Below, one piece after another: positions 4,475 through 46,462 of a stretch of DNA of 46,616 bases. Below the pieces are notes generated by a model. That model searched no databases. It was given only the letters and a program-made list of their open reading frames with translations, and had not been told where the DNA came from. Origin of the DNA: Candidatus Brocadia sapporoensis (lineage in GTDB: Bacteria > Planctomycetota > Brocadiia > Brocadiales > Brocadiaceae); contig NZ_MJUW02000080.1 of NCBI RefSeq assembly GCF_001753675.2, positions 1-46,616 on the forward strand, read 5' to 3'. A program made the position numbers and the translations under genes. The stretch's first letter is position 1, and each line of letters opens with the position of its first letter.

Positions 4475-6592
4475 ATGAATCCAAATAATGGCAGCGTTCC
4501 GTCTGCGACCCAACCGGACACGAAAGCTTCTCAGAAAAGAAAACCGAATCGCTTGATCCATGAAAAAAGCCCATACCTGCAGCAACATGCATATAATCCT
4601 GTTGACTGGTATCCCTGGGGTGAAGAGGCATTTCAGAAAGCTATCAGGGAAAACAAACCCATCTTCCTTTCTATTGGTTATTCGACCTGCCACTGGTGTC
4701 ACGTCATGGAATCCGAATCTTTTGAGGATGAAGAAGTTGCAAAACTATTGAACGAAAACTTCGTGTCGATTAAGGTTGACCGGGAAGAACGGCCAGATAT
4801 AGATAATGTGTATATGGCCGTTTGCCAGGCCATAACCGGCAGCGGTGGTTGGCCTCTCAATATCTTTTTGACACAGGAGAGAAAGCCATTTTATGCCGGT
4901 ACCTATTTTCCCAAAACGGAACGGTATGGAAACCCCGGGTTTATTGCGATTCTCAAAAAGATTTCCGATTTATGGAAAACCAATGCGGAAAGCACTATTG
5001 CATCGGGCGAACAGGTGACGAAGGTTATACAATCCATGGTCCCCACAACGCCAGGTGGACTTTTAACCAGTGAGATAATGAAGCTTGCCTATGAACAGTT
5101 AAGAGACACCTTTGATAACATTTATGGTGGATTTGGTTCATCACCCAAGTTTCCTACCCCTCATAATTATACTTTTCTCCTTCGGTGGTGGAAACGAAGC
5201 AACACCCCTCCCGCGTTGGATATGGTAGAAAAAACTCTGGAGCGGATGAGCCGGGGTGGCATATACGATCAGTTGGGAGGCGGGTTTCACCGGTATTCTA
5301 CGGACGAATACTGGCTTATCCCTCATTTTGAAAAAATGCTTTACGACCAGGCATTATTAGCCATCGCTTATACTGAGGCATATCAGGCCGCAGGAAAAAC
5401 ATATTATGCTGACATCGTAAAAGACATCTTCCGGTATGTTTTAAGGGATATGACTTCCCCGGACGGTGGCTTTTATTCTGCAGAGGACGCAGACAGCGAA
5501 GGGGTTGAGGGTAAGTATTATGTATGGACTCCTGATGAGATCGTAAAGATTTTAGGTGAAAAAGACGGGAAGATTTTTTGTGATTATTACGACGTCTCCG
5601 ATGAAGGCAATTTTGAAGGAAAGAACATCCTGCATGTTGATAAGCCGTTTGATGCCTTTGCCAAACTGGAGGGCATCAGTCCGGATAAACTCCAGGAAAT
5701 ATTACGTACATCCCGGGAAAAACTTTTTGCCGTTCGGGAGAAGCGCATTCATCCTCACAAAGATGACAAGGTGCTTACCTCATGGAATGGTTTAATGATT
5801 GCTGCGTTTGCCAAAGGTGCACGGGCATTAAACGAACCAGGGTATATACAGCCGGCAGTGCGTGCAGTCAACTTTATTTTGGATACCTTGCGTGATCACA
5901 ACGGATCATTGTTAAGGCGACATCGTCTGGGTGAGTCCGCAATTCCAGGATATCTGGACGACTATGCCTATTTTGTCTGGGGTCTGATTGACCTTTACGA
6001 GGTCACGTTTGAGACAAAATACCTGAAAATGGCATTAGAGATAAACAAGATTATGATTGAAAATTTCTGGGATGAAAAAGGGGGGGGCTTTTTCTTTAGC
6101 GGTAAGAAGAACGAACAACTGATTGCCCAAACTAAAGAAGTTTACGACGGTGCAACTCCTTCTGGAAACTCCGTTGCCTTTCTCAATCTATTTCGTTTGG
6201 GACGGATGACGGGAAATCAGACTCTGGAAAAAATGGCGGAACAAATTATAAAAACCTTTGGAGAAACGATACGACAGTATCCAGCAGGCTATACTCAATT
6301 TCTGTGCGCCTTGGATTTTTCTCTGGGGCCGACAAAAGAGATTGTCATTGCCGGAGAGCCAAATCAGAAAGACACGGAGCAGATACTTACGGCGATAGGA
6401 AAGCGGTTTCTGCCGCGACAGATATTGTTGCTCCGTTCTCAAAAAGACAAAATTCTGGAAGAAATTGCGCCATTCGTGAAAGAACAAAAACCCATCGACA
6501 ACAAAGCCACTGCTTACATCTGTGAAAACTATGCTTGTAAGGCGCCAATTTGTGATATAGATAAAATCATACACCTTTTGGAGGCACCTTAA
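4475..6592 (+). CDS. YyaL/DUF255-type thioredoxin-fold protein
   Basis: This belongs to the DUF255 family (YyaL; SSP411/spermatogenesis-associated protein 20). An N-terminal thioredoxin-like domain is joined to an alpha/alpha six-hairpin, glycosidase-like domain. From the ATG at 4475 it has about 705 residues. The family opening [20 protein letters not shown] is present, and the CHWC redox motif falls at C72/C75. Conserved [10 protein letters not shown] and [11 protein letters not shown] follow, then the (alpha/alpha)6 signature [21 protein letters not shown] frame open from 4355 would add 40 residues with a hydrophobic patch; I chose 4475 because family members start shortly before NRLIHEK. 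A GAAAGGA lies about 16 nt upstream, a long spacing, so the start is uncertain. The cellular role of this family is not established. Confidence 0.85.
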
Positions 6593-6611
6593 AACAATTT
6601 GTTTCTCTATC

Positions 6612-7808
6612 ATGAATAGTTATATTGCATTCTACATTGTTACCGTCTCTGCAATTGTCTGGCTCGTATTGCTCTTTATTCCGAAACGCTGGCGCATCTC
6701 TGAACGCTGGGATATCACCGATGAATTACCGGTAATGATTCGACCATTGCCGACGTTGTCCGTCATTATACCAGCGCGGAATGAGAGTTCATCTCTTCCC
6801 ATAACAATGCCTTCCTGGTTAAAACAAAGCTATCCGGACTCAGAAATTATTCTGATAGACGATGAATCGAGTGATGGCACAGCAGAATGTGCCAGGGAAA
6901 TTTCAGCACCGGCAAATGGTAAGGTTCAAGTCCTTGACGGTAGTCCGACTCCATCCGGATGGAGTGGAAAACTCTGGGCACTTGAGCAAGGGGTAAGGAT
7001 TTCATCCGGCGAATGGTTGTTGTTTACCGATGCAGATATTTACCACAACCCGCATCTGTGGCAGGGATTGGTAGCAAAGGCAATAGCAGAGCAACGGGAA
7101 CTAGTTTCATTAATGGTACTCCTGGATACCCGTGGATTTTGGGCGCAATTCCTTATTCCTGCATTTGTTTATTTCTTTCATTTTCTTTATCCTTTTACAG
7201 AAGTAAAAAATATACGGTCCGGAACATCAGCTGCTGCTGGTGGATGTATCCTTGTCTCACGAAAGGCATTGAATGCAATAGGAGGGATAGCCAGCTACTG
7301 CGAAGCATGGATTGACGATATTGCTCTTGCGGTAAGAGTTAAACGAGCCGGTATGCCGATTTCACTTTCATTGACAAAATCGGCAGTCAGTATTCGTCCG
7401 TATTTTAAGCTTCATGAGATTTGGAATATGGTTGCCCGTAACGCTTTTGCGCAGTTGCACTATTCATGGTTTCTATTATTGGGAACGGTAATCGGCTTGT
7501 TTATCTTATTTGTATCTCCCGTAGTTGGGATAGGTATTTCAGCAACAGGTAAAACCGCCATAATGGTACCCTCTGGTATTGCCCTGGTATCCATGTCTTT
7601 TACCTATCTGCCCACCATTCGTTTTTTTAATCTGAACAAGGTGAGGATATTCTCGTTACCCGTTGCAGGCTTTTTGTACCAGGCAATGACCGTATCTTCT
7701 GCCATAAATTTTATTTTGAACCGCCGAGAATGGCGGGGAAGCCGCAGAAAAAAAGACAAACAGAACGAATCTGTAAAAAACAATATGTCTGCGAACAACA
7801 TCTTTTAA
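6612..7808 (+). CDS. hpnB: HpnB-like family 2 glycosyltransferase
   Basis: This is a membrane-associated GT2 enzyme of 398 residues that resembles hopene-associated glycosyltransferase HpnB. One N-terminal membrane segment (about 5-24) precedes the GT-A domain: VIIPARNESS, the nucleotide-binding DDESSDGT (D83-D84), PSGWSGKLWALEQG, the metal-binding DAD (140-142) and WIDDIAL. C-terminal hydrophobic segments follow. PSGWSGKLWAL is typical of the HpnB group. It starts 19 nt after the YyaL-like gene and may share its transcript. No squalene-hopene cyclase or other hpn gene is in the window, so the link to hopanoids rests on similarity alone. Confidence 0.75.
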   Translation: MNSYIAFYIVTVSAIVWLVLLFIPKRWRISERWDITDELPVMIRPLPTLSVIIPARNESSSLPITMPSWLKQSYPDSEIILIDDESSDGTAECAREISAPANGKVQVLDGSPTPSGWSGKLWALEQGVRISSGEWLLFTDADIYHNPHLWQGLVAKAIAEQRELVSLMVLLDTRGFWAQFLIPAFVYFFHFLYPFTEVKNIRSGTSAAAGGCILVSRKALNAIGGIASYCEAWIDDIALAVRVKRAGMPISLSLTKSAVSIRPYFKLHEIWNMVARNAFAQLHYSWFLLLGTVIGLFILFVSPVVGIGISATGKTAIMVPSGIALVSMSFTYLPTIRFFNLNKVRIFSLPVAGFLYQAMTVSSAINFILNRREWRGSRRKKDKQNESVKNNMSANNIF

Positions 7809-24493: not shown

Positions 24494-25183
24494 TCAAATG
24501 GAAGTTTGAATATCTGCTGTATTAAACGATGTGATAATGTCTTTGGGTGCCAGCACACCGCCTGAAAAAAGGGCTTTAAAGGCCTCTTCTACCGTAAGGT
24601 TGGTATCAACAACTGCCTCTTCATTCGTAAATATTAAAAATCCTGTTGTTGGGTTTGGTGTGGTTGGTATAAACACACTGATAAGTTTTTTTTCGTTGTT
24701 ATACTGCGTAGCACCGGTAACAAAACCGATGGATTTTGTGCCTTCTCTTGGAAAATCTATAATAACGACTCTCTTAAATGCTTGCCTGCCGGGTAAGGTA
24801 ACTGCATGGATGATTTGTTTTACGGATGAATAGATGTTTTTAATAACAGGGGTCTTTGTTAAAAGGTTTTCAAAATAATCAATAATAGCCTTGCCTACAA
24901 AATTCGCCGCAAAGATACCAATAAAATATAATGCGACAAAGGTGAGAATGAGTCCAAAAAAAGTAATAATGAATTCATCAAGTGTGGTTCTTGGCGGTGC
25001 TACACCATGAAACTGTAACATTCTTTTAATGATAGGGGCAAGCGTGCCTCCAACAAAACTAAAGAGAAATTTTACAACGAAAAATGTTACATACACTGGC
25101 AGGATTAATAATAAGCCGGTCAGCATTCGTTTTCTAACGTCTTTTTTAAATTGTATGAATACGCCGTTTTTTTCTTTTTTCAT
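24494..25183 (-). CDS. DUF502 membrane protein
   Basis: A 229-residue inner-membrane protein of the DUF502 family. Two membrane segments lie at about 19-42 (RMLTGLLLILPVYVTFFVVK) and 68-92 (FGLILTFVALYFIGIFAANF). The family patterns TKTPVIKNIYSSVKQIIHAV and VFIPTTPNPTTGFLIFTNEE follow. It starts 13 nt after the IspH-UbiA gene on the same strand and is presumably co-transcribed with it. The function of DUF502 proteins is unknown; they are common in bacteria and plants. Confidence 0.88.
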   Translation of the reverse strand: MKKEKNGVFIQFKKDVRKRMLTGLLLILPVYVTFFVVKFLFSFVGGTLAPIIKRMLQFHGVAPPRTTLDEFIITFFGLILTFVALYFIGIFAANFVGKAIIDYFENLLTKTPVIKNIYSSVKQIIHAVTLPGRQAFKRVVIIDFPREGTKSIGFVTGATQYNNEKKLISVFIPTTPNPTTGFLIFTNEEAVVDTNLTVEEAFKALFSGGVLAPKDIITSFNTADIQTSI

Positions 25184-25196
25184 AAGTTATCAATTT

Positions 25197-26939
25197 TTAA
25201 AAGTGGTTTGATTTCCATATAAAGGCCATAATGCCAGCCAGGACGAAATTAAAGTCAATAATAGCTTCTGATAACAGCCCTTCTGATACAATCCGTTTCT
25301 GAAATAGATATTGGTAACCACAGGCATAGGCAACACAGGGGAGTAAATAATATCCCAGGGTAGTTACCCATCCAAGCCATGAACTTACTATCATTAAAAC
25401 TGCAATGAGCGCCGTAATAATTACAAGAATTGTTTTTGTGTATTCCTTTCCAATCGCAATAGGAATGGTTTCCTTTCCTAAAATACGATCGCCCTGAATG
25501 TCTCGTATGTCAAGGACTACTGCCCTGATAAATGCAAGACTAAATGCAAAGATCATGGCGATCAGAAGGGACGGCATAAAATTTTTTTGTACTCCAAGGA
25601 AAGGTATTAATGCTGTACTAACTGCCCACGCAATGCTGTAAAAAATTTCTTTTGAACCAGGAATCTCTTCGAGACTTCTGTAGCGGATAAATTTAGACAT
25701 ACTCTTTGGTATTATGTCTAACCGGTAAAAAAAACCAAAAAGGCTCGCAAGAAAGATACAGAAAAATATGGATTTACTGAGTGCGAATCCGAGAACAAAA
25801 GACGCCACTGCCCCAATGATACCAAGACAAACAAAGAGGGTTTGTTTTCTTTCGTAGAATTTCGCGCTTGTTGGTTCATTAAGCGCTACGGCCTCTTTAT
25901 TGAAGAAACGATTCAGGACTTGCATAGAAAAAATAAATAGCGCGGCTATGAAACAAAAACTGAACCGGGGTTGAATCCCGAGTAATACAGCGCTTGCATA
26001 GCTTAAACTTGCCGCTCCTAGTCCTGCATAGGTACAACTTCTGATGAAAAAACTCGCAACGTTTTTTACACCAAATAAAAGCCGTCTGTATCTGCTCAAC
26101 TTAAAGGAATGCACTTTGTCAACGACTCTTTTGATCATCCAGTTCGGCGTAGAAGCGCCTGCAGTTACACCGACGGTATCATAATTTTTCAGCTTTTCAA
26201 GGTCCAATTCTGCATCCGTTTCGACATGGAAGGTAGGCGTTCCCTGAGACTCGCAGATCTTAACGAGCCTTGTGGTATTGGCGCTTCCTCTTCCGCCAAC
26301 GACAATCATCGCGTCGACCGACTTGCTCAGGCTGATGATTTCATCCTGGCGTTTGTACGTGGAACTGCAAATGGTTTCAAAGGATTCACAGCTTGCATAG
26401 CGTTCCTTCAGCCTCTCTATCGCTTCCTTAAACATGCGCCTGTCCTGTGTTGTCTGCGCTACGATACATACCTTATCCATAGGAGGCAGTGATTCAATTT
26501 CTTCGAGTTCCTGAACAACGTATCCCTTGCCTTCCGCATATCCTAATAAACCGATAACCTCGGCATGCCCTTTGTCTCCCACAATCACCGTTGAGTATCC
26601 CTTGGCGGCATATTTTTTAATGATGGATTGGACTCTCATCACGTGGGGACATGTGGCATCACAGACTTTTGCCCCTCTGCCTTCAATTTCCTTTCTTCGG
26701 TCAGGAGTAACGCCGTGTGCCCGTATAACGACAGTGGTCTTTGAAAGATCCGTTTGTCCGTCAACAACACGGATTCCTCTCTTTTCCAAATATTCAAGCA
26801 CTTGCGGATTGTGAATCAGCGGGCCATCGGTGTAAACTTTACCATCACCATTCTTTTCGTTTGCAGCGTCCAAAAGAATATCCATCGCCCTTCGGACACC
26901 CATGCAAAATCCTGCGGTTTTAGCAACTTTTACTTTCAA
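25197..26939 (-). CDS. ispH: fusion of IspH (HMBPP reductase) with a UbiA-like prenyltransferase domain
   Basis: The 580 residues hold two complete-looking modules. Residues 1-280 are IspH, the [4Fe-4S] enzyme making IPP and DMAPP from HMBPP. Cluster ligands C12, C97 and C191 are present, as are H43 (LIHNP), H75, H125 and E127 (GHAEV), T163/T164 and GSANTTRL. A basic linker (about 281-290) leads to residues 291-575, a multi-span UbiA-superfamily domain. The second Asp motif is intact (DIRDIQGDRILGKETIPIAI, D477, D480, D484). The first is degenerate: N343-RFF-N347-KEA-V351 instead of NxxxDxxxD. A joined frame with no stop and no internal ribosome site argues for a real fusion. It could channel DMAPP/IPP to a membrane prenyl transfer, or anchor IspH. 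DUF502 follows. Confidence 0.85.
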   Translation of the reverse strand: MKVKVAKTAGFCMGVRRAMDILLDAANEKNGDGKVYTDGPLIHNPQVLEYLEKRGIRVVDGQTDLSKTTVVIRAHGVTPDRRKEIEGRGAKVCDATCPHVMRVQSIIKKYAAKGYSTVIVGDKGHAEVIGLLGYAEGKGYVVQELEEIESLPPMDKVCIVAQTTQDRRMFKEAIERLKERYASCESFETICSSTYKRQDEIISLSKSVDAMIVVGGRGSANTTRLVKICESQGTPTFHVETDAELDLEKLKNYDTVGVTAGASTPNWMIKRVVDKVHSFKLSRYRRLLFGVKNVASFFIRSCTYAGLGAASLSYASAVLLGIQPRFSFCFIAALFIFSMQVLNRFFNKEAVALNEPTSAKFYERKQTLFVCLGIIGAVASFVLGFALSKSIFFCIFLASLFGFFYRLDIIPKSMSKFIRYRSLEEIPGSKEIFYSIAWAVSTALIPFLGVQKNFMPSLLIAMIFAFSLAFIRAVVLDIRDIQGDRILGKETIPIAIGKEYTKTILVIITALIAVLMIVSSWLGWVTTLGYYLLPCVAYACGYQYLFQKRIVSEGLLSEAIIDFNFVLAGIMAFIWKSNHF

Positions 26940-27433
26940 AATAGTACCTCAGATAATTTACCATGAAAATCATGAAAAAAACGGGATCTCTTTTCCTGAA
27001 AAAACCTTATCTCCGTTATAAGACAATCTCGCTGCTGTGAGAACGAACCTAACGAAGATCTGCTTTGATATCATAAGATGTGCATCTCCAATAAGTTCTT
27101 TCAAAAGAGGGATAAACTGCGCTAAATGCGGGCATTCTATCAGTTATCGTGAAAGATGTCAATGTTTTAATGCCGAAAAATAGTGAGACAACAGGGTTTT
27201 TCCTTGCTATATAATTATCTGTTCTTTTATAATGCTACATTAAAAAAATACCTATCGAAAAACTGACTTTTCGTGAAGGATCTTTTTCCTTCGGTACCAG
27301 CGGAGAGTTTGTTTTATGTAAGTCTTTCCGTATAGTGTTGCCAGGCAAAGTCTTTCTTTTTGCAAATTATTTACACTCCTCTTGGCAGAGGGAATTTGGT
27401 TGCTGCTTTATTACACCAGGTTATTTAAACGTT
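26940..27433. other. 494-nt gap between divergent genes
   Basis: AT-rich spacer between the ispH-ubiA gene (minus) and the glycosyltransferase gene (plus). TTGCTA (27204) and TATAAT (27228) lie 18 nt apart and could be a plus-strand promoter about 200 nt ahead of the glycosyltransferase. I see no gene. Confidence 0.35.
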
Positions 27434-30069: not shown

Positions 30070-31053
30070 ATGCGTATTGAGGAATCCATCAAAATCTATG
30101 GTGCAAAGATAGACGAATTATTGAAAGAGCTCATCCCGCCGCATCGTAATGATTATTTAAGTGCACCTATATGGCACCATATGCGAACAGGGGGAAAACG
30201 AGTGAGGCCTGCACTCTGTCTGATTACCTGTGAAGCACTGGGTGGCAATCCTCATGAGGCAATACATTTTGCCCTGGCCATTGAGGCTATGCATAATATG
30301 TTTCTTATCCATGATGACATTGAGGATGGAGACACCGTACGTCGCGATCAGCCCACCGTATGGGTACAGTATGGGATTGCCAATGCGATTAATGCAGGTG
30401 ATTACCTTCTTGCTTGCGCTTATAAAACCACCCTGGCAAGTCCGATATCATTAGAAAAAAAATTAGCCTTATTGCAGGTCCTTACATCGACCTATGAAAA
30501 AACCGTGGAAGGACAGGCGTTGGATATTAACGCACGGGCAGCGGAAGATTTTTCGGTAGAAAAATATATGAAAATGGTAGAGCTCAAGACCGGCTATTAT
30601 CTTGCATGCGGAATGGTTGGCGGGGCCATTGTATCAGGAGTTTCGGAACAGGTTGTGGACAAGATATGGACACTTGGAAAAACTATGGGGCCGGCATTTC
30701 AGATCCGTGACGATCTCATTGATCTTACCCATGGAAAGGGACGAGGGGGAGTAATTGGCTCTGATGTTAAGGAAGGCAAGGCAAGTTTCTTATACTCGTA
30801 TGCATTACAGATTGCTAGTGCGGATGATAAAAAACAGTTACGGATTATCATGTTAAAACCCAGGGATGAAACAACAGATAACGATATCCAAAAAGTGCTG
30901 GATATATATCGTAAGTATGGAGCGATACAACATGCCCAGGATTATGCAGAGAATTTAGTAAGACAAGCGTATAAGACGATTGATGAGATTCCAACCGGAA
31001 ACAAAACGATATTTAAAGAGATAGCGTCTTTCATGGCGCAGCGGATGTCTTAA
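30070..31053 (+). CDS. polyprenyl diphosphate synthase
   Basis: Trans-prenyl transferase that condenses IPP with allylic diphosphates, 327 residues. GGKRVRP (41-47) binds IPP. The first Asp-rich motif is DDIED (82-86) in FLIHDDIEDGDTVRRDQPTV; the second is QIRDDLIDLTHGKGRGGVIG. Residues before the first motif are M77-F78, with no Tyr or Phe at the fifth position upstream. That favours GGPP or longer products over strict FPP, but does not settle it. The window also carries IspH-UbiA and HpnB-like genes. ATG follows AAGAGATAGAC. Confidence 0.9.
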   Translation: MRIEESIKIYGAKIDELLKELIPPHRNDYLSAPIWHHMRTGGKRVRPALCLITCEALGGNPHEAIHFALAIEAMHNMFLIHDDIEDGDTVRRDQPTVWVQYGIANAINAGDYLLACAYKTTLASPISLEKKLALLQVLTSTYEKTVEGQALDINARAAEDFSVEKYMKMVELKTGYYLACGMVGGAIVSGVSEQVVDKIWTLGKTMGPAFQIRDDLIDLTHGKGRGGVIGSDVKEGKASFLYSYALQIASADDKKQLRIIMLKPRDETTDNDIQKVLDIYRKYGAIQHAQDYAENLVRQAYKTIDEIPTGNKTIFKEIASFMAQRMS

Positions 31054-40175: not shown

Positions 40176-42027
<1,852 letters not shown>

Positions 42028-42028
<1 letters not shown>

Positions 42029-42303
42029 TGGAAAATCAAAAGTTTTCCCGTAATATTGAAAAGTCTGCAAGGGAACTGCTGAGTTCCCGAAAAGAGAGGT
42101 CAAATTTCTGGCGTTATGCTAATGTCCTCGGTGTCGGGGGATGGGTTTTTGTTATACCGGTAGTTGGCGGGGCTTATCTCGGAAGGTATCTGGACAAAAA
42201 AATGCACGGAGAAGGCATCTCATGGACAATAACCCTTATTATGATCGGCATAGCCGTCGGTATTTATAATGTCTGGTATCTGTTTGTCAGGAAACATCAG
42301 TAA
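42028..42303 (+). CDS. atpQ: AtpQ/AtpI-like membrane protein
   Basis: A 91-residue protein with two membrane hairpin segments: WRYANVLGVGGWVFVIPVVG (about 25-46) and WTITLIMIGIAVGIYNVWYL (about 65-86). In N-type ATPase operons atpQ, a relative of atpI, follows atpC and probably helps c-ring assembly or ion binding. The next gene there is usually atpR; here atpB follows at once with a TAATG overlap. Polar residues Gly-rich GGAYLGRYLD between the spans match AtpI. Confidence 0.8.
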
Positions 42304-42968
42304 TGAAGATATTTAATGTTTTTCCGGAGACAATTTTTTCAATCGGCCCCGTTCATATTACCGATACCGTTATTACCACATGGCTCGTCATGATTGCCAT
42401 AATAACGATAAGCTATTTTGCAACACGGAAACTCTCCGTAAAGCCTTCTTTTTTCCAGGAGATTATAGAAGCCGTCTTTGAGGCCATCGAAGTGACAATA
42501 AAGGATATCCTGCCTGTTGAACCCTGGCTGGTTATTCCTGTGCTGGGCACCCTGTGGATACTTATTGGCTTCTCCAATCTGGCTGGTTTAATACCAGGAT
42601 TGAAGACTCCTACTGCAGACCTTAATACAACTTTTGCATTTGCGTTAATATCCTTTTCAATGACCCACGTCATCGGTATTGCAACACAAGGGTTGAAAGG
42701 ATATCTCATGCACTATAAAGAACCAACGTGGCTCTTGCTCCCTTTCCACCTTATAGCAGAGGTTACAAGGACCATTGCCCTCGCGGTAAGGCTTTTTGGG
42801 AATATGTTAAGTGGCGACATGATCACCATAATACTCCTCGGGATCGTCGGTTTACTGGTGCCGGTCCCGTTTAGCTTACTGCATATTATTATTGCCCTTA
42901 TACAGGCATATATATTTGGTGTTTTAACCCTGGTTTTTATTGCAGGCGGTATCAGAACAAAATCTTAA
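42303..42968 (+). CDS. atpB: F-ATPase subunit a
   Basis: The Fo half-channel subunit, 221 residues, five or six membrane spans. The essential Arg is in TRTIALAVRLFGNMLSGDMI (R near 166), and VFEAIEVTIKDILPVEPW and SNLAGLIPGLKTPTADLNTT are family landmarks. It is shorter than typical canonical a subunits of about 270, in the N-type range. Its stop is followed after 12 nt by atpE. Confidence 0.92.
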   Translation: MKIFNVFPETIFSIGPVHITDTVITTWLVMIAIITISYFATRKLSVKPSFFQEIIEAVFEAIEVTIKDILPVEPWLVIPVLGTLWILIGFSNLAGLIPGLKTPTADLNTTFAFALISFSMTHVIGIATQGLKGYLMHYKEPTWLLLPFHLIAEVTRTIALAVRLFGNMLSGDMITIILLGIVGLLVPVPFSLLHIIIALIQAYIFGVLTLVFIAGGIRTKS

Positions 42969-42980
42969 AGGAGATTCGAT

Positions 42981-43247
42981 ATGGATGCTAAAACCGTAGT
43001 TATTTCTGTTTCCATAATAGCGGCTGCCTTTGCCATGGCTATTGGTGGATATGGTCCAGCAAGGGCGTTGGGCAAGGCGCTTACAGAAGCGCTCGATGCA
43101 ATTGCAAGACAACCTGAGGCCTCGGACAGGATTATGAGGGCTCTTTTTGTCGGGATGGCATTGATTGAATCTATTGCCATATATGCATTTGTCATTGCAT
43201 TGATTATCCTTTTTGCTAATCCTCTCATCGGGTACATTTTAAAATGA
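42981..43247 (+). CDS. atpE: F-ATPase subunit c with partial Na+ motif
   Basis: Rotor ring subunit of 88 residues, two helices joined by ARQPE (42-46). The ion-binding Glu is E63 in LIESIAIY. Compared with the Na+ ring of Ilyobacter tartaricus, Ser66 and Tyr70 are matched (S64, Y68), but Gln32 is L30 and Thr67 is I65. Ion choice is thus open. AAAGGAGATTCGAT ahead of the ATG is the strongest ribosome site of the operon, fitting a multi-copy subunit. ATGA overlap couples it to atpF. Confidence 0.93.
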   Translation: MDAKTVVISVSIIAAAFAMAIGGYGPARALGKALTEALDAIARQPEASDRIMRALFVGMALIESIAIYAFVIALIILFANPLIGYILK

Positions 43248-43984
43248 AATTGAACATCTGGACACTCCTCTTTCAGATAATAAACTTTGTTGTTTTGCTC
43301 TTTATCCTCAGGCGGATATTATATAAACCCATACGGGAAATTATTGAAAAGCGCAGGGGGATTGTGGCAAAGACTGTCGAGGATGCTGAAAAGACAAAGA
43401 AAGAGGCGCTTGAACTGAAGGAGAAACAGCAGGAGGAGCTGAAGAAATTTAAGGAAGTTCAAGACCGCCTACTCGGACAGACACGGGAAGAGGCTCTTAA
43501 GGAAAGAAATAAACTGCTCAGTGAGGCAAAGGAAGACGCAGTTAAAATAATCGAAAAAGAAAAAGCGCTGTTTGATGCGGAAAAAAAGAGGATAGAAACG
43601 GAACTAAAAACCAAATGTCTTGAGATTACCTCCATTTTTGCATCGAACCTTTTGAAAGATATTTCAGACAAAGAGCTCCATATGGCTGTTGTAAGAAGGT
43701 TTTTGAAGGAGAACGAGATAATGGTTTCTGATGTTTCCAAAATGAAAGAAACCGCAGAGGCATTAAATATAGACCTCGTTACCGCATATCCGTTTTCGAT
43801 GGATGATGAAAAAGTGGTTCGGGGAACTCTTGAAGCGCGTATTGCAAAAAAAATAAAAATTAATACAACCATTGATGAGACGCTTATTGCCGGTGTAAGG
43901 GTAAAGGTTGGCGATACGATTTACGATGCCTCACTTGCAGGCCGGATAAATGCCATTGCTTTGAAACTTAAAGAAACCTCCTAG
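43244..43984 (+). CDS. atpF: F-ATPase subunit b with C-terminal delta-like domain
   Basis: 246 residues. One N-terminal membrane helix (LLFQIINFVVLLFILRRILY), a long charged coiled coil to about 150, then a segment ending in DETLIAGVRVKVGDTIYDAS and LAGRINAIAL. That end resembles the C terminus of delta subunits (LIGGxxVxVGDxxxDxSxxxRL). N-type ATPases lack atpH and have such extended b subunits, so one protein probably does both jobs. The operon indeed has no separate delta gene. Confidence 0.9.
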   Translation: MKLNIWTLLFQIINFVVLLFILRRILYKPIREIIEKRRGIVAKTVEDAEKTKKEALELKEKQQEELKKFKEVQDRLLGQTREEALKERNKLLSEAKEDAVKIIEKEKALFDAEKKRIETELKTKCLEITSIFASNLLKDISDKELHMAVVRRFLKENEIMVSDVSKMKETAEALNIDLVTAYPFSMDDEKVVRGTLEARIAKKIKINTTIDETLIAGVRVKVGDTIYDASLAGRINAIALKLKETS

Positions 43985-44034
43985 CGCAGTTTCGCCGCAA
44001 CGAATTACCGCTCAACCTATGCAGGGACAAGGGT

Positions 44035-44078
44035 ACCCTCTCTTCCCCTTCTTTAAAAGTCGGGGATAAGGGAGAGGT
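44035..44078. repeat. palindromic repeat inside the ATPase operon, copy C
   Basis: ACCCTCTCTTCCCC and GGGGATAAGGGAGAGG form the arms of an imperfect hairpin around a 12-nt centre. It sits in the only large gap of the operon (136 nt, between atpF and atpA) and shares architecture with copies A and B. It could be a local mRNA-stability or attenuation element. Confidence 0.65.
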
Positions 44079-44120
44079 AAAAAATCTTCCTAAAAAATAT
44101 TTGCACAGTAATAAAGATAG

Positions 44121-45617
44121 ATGGAAAAAGAATTCAGCATTTTTTTTGAAAAGATAAAGGAAAAGGTCAAAGCCAGCAGATTCTCCGTTGGCATTACGGA
44201 GGAAGGCAGGGTGCTTTCCATAGGAGATGGGATAGTGCATCTTGCTGGTCTGCGGGATGCAAAACTTTATGAGCTTATTAAATTTGCACATGGCGATGAA
44301 GGGATAGTATTTGATCTTGATGTTGATAGCATAGGAGTCGTACTGCTTACCGAACGTAACGGAATAAGGGCGGGTGATACGGCTTATAAAACCGAACGAA
44401 TTGCTTCCGTAAATGTAAGCGAAGGACTCTTGGGAAGGATATTGGATGCCCTCGGTAATCCTATAGATAATGGACCAAAACTTGAACAGACAGTGTCTTG
44501 GCCAATAGAAAAGGAAGCACCTTCCTTGCTCCAGAGAGACTTTATTACCGAACCTCTCTACACAGGTATTAAAGTTATTGACTCTATGCTTGCCATAGGT
44601 AAAGGACAACGGGAGCTGATCATCGGCGATTCTGCTACCGGCAAGACTTCTCTTGCTATTGATACCGTCATCAATCAGAAAAACTCCCGCGTAATTTCTA
44701 TTTATGTAGCCATCGGACAAAAAAAGTCTCATGTATTAAAAATTATTGAAGAGATAAAAAGATATGGCGATTTATCAAAGACCATATTTGTAATTGCAGA
44801 TGCTTCAAACTCTTTTGGTCTTCAATTTATTGCCCCTTACAGCGCTATGGCCATTGCCGAGTATTTCCTTGTTAAGGGGGAGGATGTTTTACTCATCTAC
44901 GACGATCTTACAAAACATGCCGATGCGTATCGTTCCTTAAGCCTCTTGCTGAAGAGATCTCCCGGCAGAGAGGCATATCCGGGAGACATATTTTTTATCC
45001 ACTCAAGACTGCTCGAAAGGTCTGCAAAACTAAATCAGAAGAACGGAGGAGGCTCCATTACCGCCCTTCCGATTGTGGAAACACAGCAGGGCAGAATATC
45101 ATCTTATATTCCCACAAACCTTATCTCGATAACAGATGGTCAAATATATTTGGATACTTTCCTGTTCAACAAAGGTATCCGGCCAGCAGTGGACGTGAGC
45201 AAATCTGTGTCGAGGATAGGCGGAAAGGCTCAGGTTGAGGCAATGAAAGCGGTGGCAGAAAGGCTGAAAATCGACTATTCAAGATTCATTGAGGTGGAAG
45301 TATTTACAAAATTCGGGGCACATGTGGAGGAAGAGACTGCAAAACTCATCAAACGCGGTGAACGACTAAGAGAAATTCTAAAACAACCGCAGTTTCATCC
45401 TTTCACCCTTGAAGATGAGGTATTAAGCTTCATAATTTTGGAATCGGGCGTACTCGATAATGTAGCAATTACCTTAGTAGATAAAGTTTGCAAGGAAATA
45501 ACGAACGCGGCTAAAACAGCATTCCCGGAGATTATAAGGCGTATCAATCAAGATGGTTTGCTGGAAAAAAAGGACCTGGAAGCATTGAAGGTTTTCATCG
45601 GAAAAGAAAGGGTTTAG
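44121..45617 (+). CDS. atpA: F-ATPase alpha subunit
   Basis: The regulatory, nucleotide-binding subunit, 498 residues. It has GRVLSIGDGIVHLAGL near the N terminus, Walker A GDSATGKTSLAIDTVINQ, LIYDDLTKHADAYRSLSLLL, and the ISSYIPTNLISITDGQIYLD segment. The N-terminal helical arm that binds delta is present but short. It follows the b gene after the repeat-containing gap and is followed by the gamma gene after 2 nt. Confidence 0.93.
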   Translation: MEKEFSIFFEKIKEKVKASRFSVGITEEGRVLSIGDGIVHLAGLRDAKLYELIKFAHGDEGIVFDLDVDSIGVVLLTERNGIRAGDTAYKTERIASVNVSEGLLGRILDALGNPIDNGPKLEQTVSWPIEKEAPSLLQRDFITEPLYTGIKVIDSMLAIGKGQRELIIGDSATGKTSLAIDTVINQKNSRVISIYVAIGQKKSHVLKIIEEIKRYGDLSKTIFVIADASNSFGLQFIAPYSAMAIAEYFLVKGEDVLLIYDDLTKHADAYRSLSLLLKRSPGREAYPGDIFFIHSRLLERSAKLNQKNGGGSITALPIVETQQGRISSYIPTNLISITDGQIYLDTFLFNKGIRPAVDVSKSVSRIGGKAQVEAMKAVAERLKIDYSRFIEVEVFTKFGAHVEEETAKLIKRGERLREILKQPQFHPFTLEDEVLSFIILESGVLDNVAITLVDKVCKEITNAAKTAFPEIIRRINQDGLLEKKDLEALKVFIGKERV

Positions 45618-45619
45618 CC

Positions 45620-46462
45620 ATGCTTTCTTCCATAGATATTGAAAAAAAAAGAAGAGCGCTCTACACCATAGAGGATATCGTCAGCGCAATGAAGGCATAT
45701 GCCGGGGTCACGATCAGAAGAACCGATGAACTAGTACAGAATGTAAGGGTTTATGAAAATAATCTGATTTTGGCTATGTACGATCTTACAACACATTATC
45801 CGGGAATATCATTAAGGGGGCAAAACAAAGGAAAACGAATTCTCGTAGCATTCGGGTCATCACAGGGATTATGTGGCCCTTTTAATGAAAAAATAGCCGA
45901 CACCGTTTCCCGTGTCGCTACCAGCAATGATATCCTGTTTGTCATCGGAAAGCGGCTGAAATTATCTCTGGAATTAAAACAGACAAAATATGAAGATTAT
46001 TGCGACTCCGTTGCTAGCATCAACGGAATACAGTCGGCCCTGAAAGATACGGTTTTGAAAATAATGAATATATACCGTAAGGAAGAGTACTATAATCTTA
46101 CGCTCATCTTCACCTATATTTTTGAGAAAAAGGCCGAGATTTCCGTGAAACAGACACTCCCGCCTGATATGCATAAAGAGGGAGCTTTAAGCCAGACAAG
46201 GGTTCCGCCTTACACCTATCTTGAACCAAAAAAAATATTTGAAAAGATCCTGGAAGAGTTTTTGTTTATCAGCCTTTACAGAGGTTATGTAGAGTCACTG
46301 AGGAGCGAGAACTGGTATCGGATGAGGAGCATGGAAGGAGCCTCTGAAACCCTGAAAAGACAACTTTCGGATCTTAATGCCATGCAGATGTACACCCGGC
46401 AGGAAGAGATTACCGAGGAGATGCTGGAGATATTGGGAAGCGGGATGTTTTTTAAAAAATAG
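45620..46462 (+). CDS. atpG: F-ATPase gamma subunit
   Basis: The central rotor shaft, 280 residues, strongly diverged. Kept features are the C-terminal helix with SLYRGYVESLRSENWYRMRS, MEGASE, and FGSSQGLCGPFNEKIADTV in the Rossmann part (G-S-x-x-GLCG pattern). N-terminal residues 1-40 form the other coiled-coil strand. The start is ATG at 45620 after the alpha stop, with weak ribosome site. It is the last gene of the operon. Confidence 0.9.
   Translation: MLSSIDIEKKRRALYTIEDIVSAMKAYAGVTIRRTDELVQNVRVYENNLILAMYDLTTHYPGISLRGQNKGKRILVAFGSSQGLCGPFNEKIADTVSRVATSNDILFVIGKRLKLSLELKQTKYEDYCDSVASINGIQSALKDTVLKIMNIYRKEEYYNLTLIFTYIFEKKAEISVKQTLPPDMHKEGALSQTRVPPYTYLEPKKIFEKILEEFLFISLYRGYVESLRSENWYRMRSMEGASETLKRQLSDLNAMQMYTRQEEITEEMLEILGSGMFFKK

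Follow-up and report, generated by a model that had tools for sequence, protein, structure and literature searches.

A predicted membrane-tethered IspH in anammox bacteria: an IspH–UbiA fusion with an altered first aspartate motif

The fusion gene and its reading frame

A single frame on the minus strand of the window (the whole 46,616-nucleotide stretch of Candidatus Brocadia sapporoensis DNA that was analyzed) encodes an IspH domain followed by a UbiA-type membrane domain, and each domain is matched by its Pfam family (Table 1). The source genome is 2.9 Mb in size and 99% complete.

Table 1. Features of the fusion gene and its surroundings; positions are those of the window
Feature	Residues	Position	Strand	Remarks
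IspH–UbiA fusion ORF	580 aa	25197-26939	(-)	Single uninterrupted frame, TTG start
Shine-Dalgarno sequence GAGGT		26946-26950	(-)	Six bases 5' of TTG start; from sequence
IspH (LytB) domain, 4Fe-4S HMBPP reductase	1-277	26109-26939	(-)	Pfam LYTB, TIGR00216
Linker and first helix	278-302	26034-26108	(-)	Least conserved stretch; helix 283-300 in model
UbiA-fold membrane domain, nine long helices	303-580	25200-26033	(-)	Pfam UbiA, AlphaFold2, Foldseek
Altered first Asp motif, N-R-F-F-N-K-E-A-V-A-L-N-E-P	343-356	25872-25913	(-)	Sequence, homologue alignments
Conserved loop SLEEIPGSKE (family RLKDIPASKD)	422-431	25647-25676	(-)	Near-invariant Ser429-Lys430
Second Asp motif, intact, D477-IR-D480-IQG-D484		25488-25511	(-)	Conservation counts
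DUF502 membrane protein gene		24494-25183	(-)	Directly downstream, same direction, 13 bases stop-to-start; Pfam DUF502, E 4e-31
trans-Polyprenyl synthetase gene		30070-31053	Opposite to fusion	

The joining of the two domains in one frame, proposed in an earlier sequence-only reading of this DNA, was borne out. A stop or frameshift at residues 275-300 was looked for as a possible refutation; codons 275-300 contain zero stops, and the frame is open in dozens of assemblies. An independent ribosome site at the join was looked for as well, and the potential internal starts GTG276 and TTG281 are without a good one. ATG codons around the join are found at codon 268, within IspH, and then at codon 339, within the second membrane helix. 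No ATG lies between Met268 and Met339, and internal initiation at an ATG is therefore unlikely to give a full-length free UbiA protein. An assembly artefact, or a stop or frameshift at the join that really yields two separate proteins, would be in keeping with a single locus (L188, from Candidatus Scalindua rubra) among the 80 recovered in a genome scan, in which the UbiA half lies in two frames. However, the identical continuous frame is present in dozens of independent assemblies from several phyla, which excludes sequencing error. Together with the absence of a plausible internal ATG start, this conserved frame rules out an artefact or separate products, and the probability left to them is negligible.

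The IspH half

The N-terminal half is an IspH in every respect that was compared. Its match to Pfam LYTB spans residues 3-276 (E 4.9e-95, 318 bits, cut-off 24.5), and it scores 285 bits with NCBIfam TIGR00216, above the cut-off of 188. It shares the fold and all catalytic residues of free IspH enzymes, with 40% identity to that of Aquifex aeolicus (3dnf) and 28% to that of E. coli (3ke8), from which it differs in carrying a membrane domain. The three Cys residues of the iron-sulfur cluster (Cys12, Cys97, and Cys191) and the HMBPP-binding set (His43, His75, His125, Glu127, Thr164, Ser219, Asn221, and Ser263) are invariant in 55 of 55 diverse homologues, in agreement with the original view that the IspH half is fully equipped with its cluster Cys and catalytic His and Glu residues. 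The fused copy is the only IspH found in the source genome, which also encodes IspG, the partner of IspH in the MEP pathway. Because the active-site residues are all invariant and IspG is present, the fused gene should be the working IspH of the cell, and reductase activity is predicted for it.

Fold and conservation of the UbiA half

The C-terminal half matches Pfam UbiA over residues 311-545 (E 1.4e-14, 54 bits, cut-off 34.2). Modeled alone with AlphaFold2, it gave a confident nine-helix structure (pLDDT 93.6, pTM 0.92); the full protein was modeled with a pLDDT of 89.6 and a pTM of 0.80. The best solved structures retrieved by Foldseek for this half were all UbiA enzymes (4tq4, 4tq3, 7bpu, and 4od4), and the archaeal UbiA enzymes gave the best solved matches, with TM-scores around 0.5–0.7 and identities of 13–18%. 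The suggestion that the fusion tethers IspH to the membrane is thus supported, as it follows from the nine-helix domain. Channelling of DMAPP or IPP to prenyl transfer, the other part of that suggestion, may take place, and it was put forward in print by Rao et al. (2015; PMC4746011). Assignment to a known UbiA-type enzyme was tried and rejected for MenA, UbiA, the archaeal lipid synthases (GGGP/DGGGP synthase), and BchG/chlorophyll synthase, all of whose equivalog scores fall far below their cut-offs (best scores of 14-55 bits with the NCBIfam UbiA-type equivalogs vs. cut-offs of 102-436). A separate, ordinary UbiA enzyme (MqnP-like, with NRLVDxxxD) is encoded in the source genome, so quinone prenylation and menaquinone synthesis need not depend on the UbiA domain of the fusion.

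Both halves are under purifying selection, which is strong on the UbiA half as judged from substitution rates (dN/dS 0.055-0.107, vs. 0.023-0.050 for the IspH half), and the UbiA half evolves faster than the IspH half. Mean entropy among 55 homologues was 2.97 bits in the linker, vs. 1.65 in IspH and 2.27 in UbiA.

A lopsided prenyltransferase site

UbiA enzymes carry two Asp-rich motifs. In the archaeal AfUbiA, N68 and D72 of motif 1 and D198 and D202 of motif 2 bind two Mg ions, and the Mg bound by N68 and D72 adjoins the diphosphate (PMC4106721). An indirect contribution of D76 is possible, and no residue is more strongly conserved in the family than Y139 (PMC4106721). GPP binding is lost in the N68A or D72A mutant and is 45-fold weaker in D198A and 21-fold weaker in D202A; equivalent substitutions in E. 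coli MenA kill activity (PMC4106721). By motif position, N343 of the fusion corresponds to N68, N347 to D72, V351 to D76, D480 to D198, D484 to D202, and Y405 to Y139.

The first motif of the fusion departs from the canonical NDxxDxxxD: in N343-R-F-F-N347-K-E-A-V351, the Asn alone is kept, and the Asp residues at +4 and +8 are replaced by Asn347 and Val351. Support for the register of this motif comes from aligning profiles with an unfused relative (HH probability 98.6), in which the motif is an intact NRVVDLKED. The second motif agrees with DxxxD through D480-IQG-D484. The initial description of N343/N347/V351 as degenerate and of D477/D480/D484 as intact was therefore verified on both counts.

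Conservation across the diverse set follows the same division. N343 is found in 49 of 55 homologues, Y405, the conserved active-site Tyr, in 55/55, S429 in 52/55, and K430 in 52/55, with Arg in the rest. In the second motif, D484 is present in 54, D477 in 45, and D480 in 41 of the 55. At position 347, by comparison, the set has Asp in 24, Glu in 10, Asn in 5, and other residues in 16, and position 351 is Asp in 10 of 55. Ranked by variability within the domain, N343, Y405, S429, K430, R472, D484, E490, and T491 fall within the lowest 6%, D477 lies at the 7th and D480 at the 13th percentile, and first-motif positions 347 and 351 lie at the 59th and 87th. Nine further Nitrospinota fusions outside the profile have no Asp at the canonical motif-1 positions (e.g., NQLLRPKEI), while most of them retain motif 2. 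The first motif has thus changed across the family sampled, with the rest of the cavity retained; the altered motif was correctly picked out at the outset, and the idea that it is a local quirk of the source genome can be set aside. The replaced motif is in turn conserved among the Brocadiales (N343 in 45/45, N347 in 42/45, E/D349 in 45/45, and P356 in 45/45), suggesting a site that was re-tooled rather than one that decayed. The second motif is kept alongside it (D477 in 45/45, D480 in 40/45, and D484 in 44/45), and in one Brocadiales family (f2) Phe replaces Tyr405 in all 7 of 7 members.

To judge from these residues, the UbiA half is probably not an ordinary two-metal prenyltransferase, and in the Brocadiales this role is doubtful. 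Two-metal catalysis is possible in many lineages, as Mg could still be ligated by an Asn in place of D72, and 34 of 55 homologues have Asp or Glu at this position. A bifunctional enzyme, whose UbiA half would prenylate a lipid or aromatic acceptor with IspH-derived DMAPP or with a longer prenyl diphosphate in spite of the divergent first metal site, is accordingly a serious contender, yet one that we consider rather less probable than the reading favored below. This is the Rosetta-stone proposal, published by Rao et al. (2015; PMC4746011). Outside motif 1, the key UbiA residues rank as the best conserved ones in the domain, and a near-invariant second motif, Tyr, and Lys would also be expected of an active enzyme; furthermore, Asn343 is retained and many lineages have Asp or Glu at +4. 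An O-methyltransferase-like gene follows the fusion at a distance of 8-37 bases in four loci labelled Nitrospinota or Nitrospirota (L182:5773-6777, L204:6893-7897, L194, and L202), with Pfam Methyltransf_2 confirmed in two of the four, a neighbor that may hint at methylation of a prenylated product. Transfer activity is harder to reconcile with the Brocadiales proteins, which lack both first-motif Asp residues and, in family f2, have Phe for the catalytic Tyr, with the nine Nitrospinota fusions described above, and with the placement of the motif-1 Asp positions among the variable ones.

Distribution and evolutionary history

The fusion was found in 53 of 59 genomes, comprising the source genome and its nearest relatives down to the order level, nearly always as one open frame without stops. 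The six genomes without it had no IspH match whatever, and thus a free IspH was not encountered in any member of the order. Four genomes that are 92-99% complete (G062 and G063, of the same class, and G014 and G035, of the same family or order) had no IspH, which may reflect assembly gaps or another route. Named relatives with the fusion in a second collection were Candidatus Brocadia, Kuenenia, Jettenia, Loosdrechtia, and Scalindua, all of the anammox order Brocadiales.

When the UbiA half was used as the query, the 80 loci of the scan carried the labels Planctomycetota, Nitrospinota, Nitrospirota, Zixibacteria, Glassbacteria, and unclassified bacteria. All loci not cut by a contig end had IspH fused in front, with the exception of L188, in which the UbiA half is spread over two frames of 435 and 192 aa (positions 5113-6857) and the IspH half is intact; this split could be natural or stem from a sequencing error. 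An unfused close relative of this UbiA subfamily was looked for and not found. Two apparent unfused copies (L104 and L205) proved to be cut by contig ends, and the next unfused relative (L129) looks like a member of a different subfamily. The domain was present in 19 of 24 genomes from the phylum of a Nitrospinaceae genome (G344), and a strong match was found in only 2 of 148 genomes from the phylum of another, labelled Nitrospiraceae (G343). Nitrospinaceae include aerobic nitrite oxidizers, so a restriction of the fusion to strict anaerobes is doubtful. The fused gene was the sole IspH in the genomes checked, except in G343, which has a second, free IspH. At this locus (L240:519-1999), the free ispH is followed within about 10 bases by an unfused ribosomal protein S1-like frame.

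In a tree of IspH domains, in which free IspHs from outside the Planctomycetota are few, 54 fused IspHs fell on one side of a single branch, together with three free planctomycete IspHs. These three (L258:6046-6945, L259:8239-9132, and L257:5326-6237) are nested in the fused group without a UbiA half, and no UbiA homologue was found beside them, so that the simplest history for these sequences is a single ancient fusion from which some lineages later lost the UbiA half. Distances in the two halves are correlated (Mantel r 0.86; best of 1000 permutations 0.19), as expected if both halves travelled together.

The apparent loss of the UbiA half from planctomycete lineages that keep IspH, with no adjoining UbiA homologue, and the faster evolution of this half would fit a passive anchor, in which the UbiA fold just holds IspH near a redox partner or downstream synthases and binds no ligand. 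We regard such an anchor as improbable, as the near-invariant Asp, Lys, Arg, and Tyr at UbiA-cavity positions would be needless for it.

Relation to known fusions and comparable systems

The sequence-only reading implied novelty by noting that IspH is normally a free, soluble enzyme. This implication did not hold, as IspH–UbiA fusions have been in print since 2015 (PMC4746011). Rao et al. (2015) described 47 such "Rosetta stone" fusions, stated to come all from sulfate-reducing anaerobes and belonging to CDD class PT_UbiA_5, and proposed that the UbiA half localizes IspH, giving high local IPP/DMAPP; full-length active protein could not be expressed (PMC4746011). A literature search otherwise found the IspH–UbiA fusion term only in the reference list of one paper, and nothing on anammox. 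The present protein resembles the published fusions in having IspH N-terminal and UbiA C-terminal in one polypeptide, and in coming from a genome with a separate ordinary UbiA/MenA-type enzyme. In contrast to the published set of sulfate reducers, the fusions described here belong to anammox Planctomycetota, Nitrospinota, Nitrospirota, and others, and the published view of a fusion exclusive to strict anaerobes is weakened by their occurrence in the Nitrospinaceae. Furthermore, only the second Asp motif is present here, whereas two DXXXD motifs were reported in the earlier set (PMC4746011), a comparison made with the published description. The architecture itself is already known, and what is added is an anammox member, a far wider range, a single old fusion with losses, and the lopsided site.

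Other systems share parts of this design. AfUbiA (4tq3/4tq4), ApUbiA (4od4/4od5), and the MqnP-like enzymes have the same nine-helix fold, motif-1 Asn, Tyr, and second DxxxD, while the fusion differs in its replaced motif-1 Asp, its N-terminal IspH, and an identity of 13-18%. IspH-RPS1 fusions of Clostridia and others likewise place a large C-terminal partner on IspH, which in their case is the soluble ribosomal protein S1 (PMC4746011). In eukaryotes, the UbiA protein UBIAD1 binds HMG-CoA reductase and acts as a GGPP sensor (PDB 8djk, PMC9314443). There, too, a UbiA-fold protein is physically coupled to a reductase of the isoprenoid pathway; the two are separate proteins and the reductase is another one, so the likeness is an analogy and the arrangement is not homologous.

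Proposed role of the fusion

IspH is normally regarded as soluble, and against this picture the only IspH found in the anammox order is predicted to be membrane-bound. This order accounts for a large share of the fixed nitrogen that the oceans lose. The best overall explanation of the conserved residues, which we favor tentatively and at somewhat less than even confidence, is that the sole IspH is docked at the membrane by a UbiA half that binds prenyl diphosphate and has changed or no transfer chemistry. The UbiA-fold domain and short linker would fix the HMBPP reductase to the cytoplasmic face of the membrane, placing it where its C5 products are used, and the cavity residues Asn343, Tyr405, Lys430, Arg472, and D480/D484 would hold the prenyl diphosphate. 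As the first metal has lost its customary Asp ligands, the UbiA half would most likely bind an isoprenoid diphosphate or a lipid isoprenoid next to IspH, with transfer chemistry that is altered or missing. Feedback to IspH on the abundance of longer prenyl diphosphates might also pass through the UbiA half.

A more specific form of this membrane-docked reading takes the UbiA half as a regulatory or substrate-holding pseudo-prenyltransferase, through which the final enzyme of the MEP pathway would carry its own membrane sensor for prenyl diphosphates; we consider this reading unlikely. In design it would be a bacterial counterpart of UBIAD1–HMG-CoA reductase, and it would occur throughout the anammox bacteria, the Nitrospinota, and their relatives. 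Should the UbiA half bind or sense prenyl diphosphates, control over the exit of the MEP pathway would lie at the membrane.

Gene neighborhood

The DUF502 gene is the next gene downstream of the fusion in 58 loci compared from the Brocadiales (including L034-L053 and L130-L206). Outside the Brocadiales the neighbors differ, and no gene neighbor conserved across phyla that would point to a pathway or substrate was found in the loci compared. Elsewhere in the window, positions 40200-46462 hold an ATP synthase cluster, one gene of which (43244-43984) encodes the b and delta (OSCP) subunits as a single protein.
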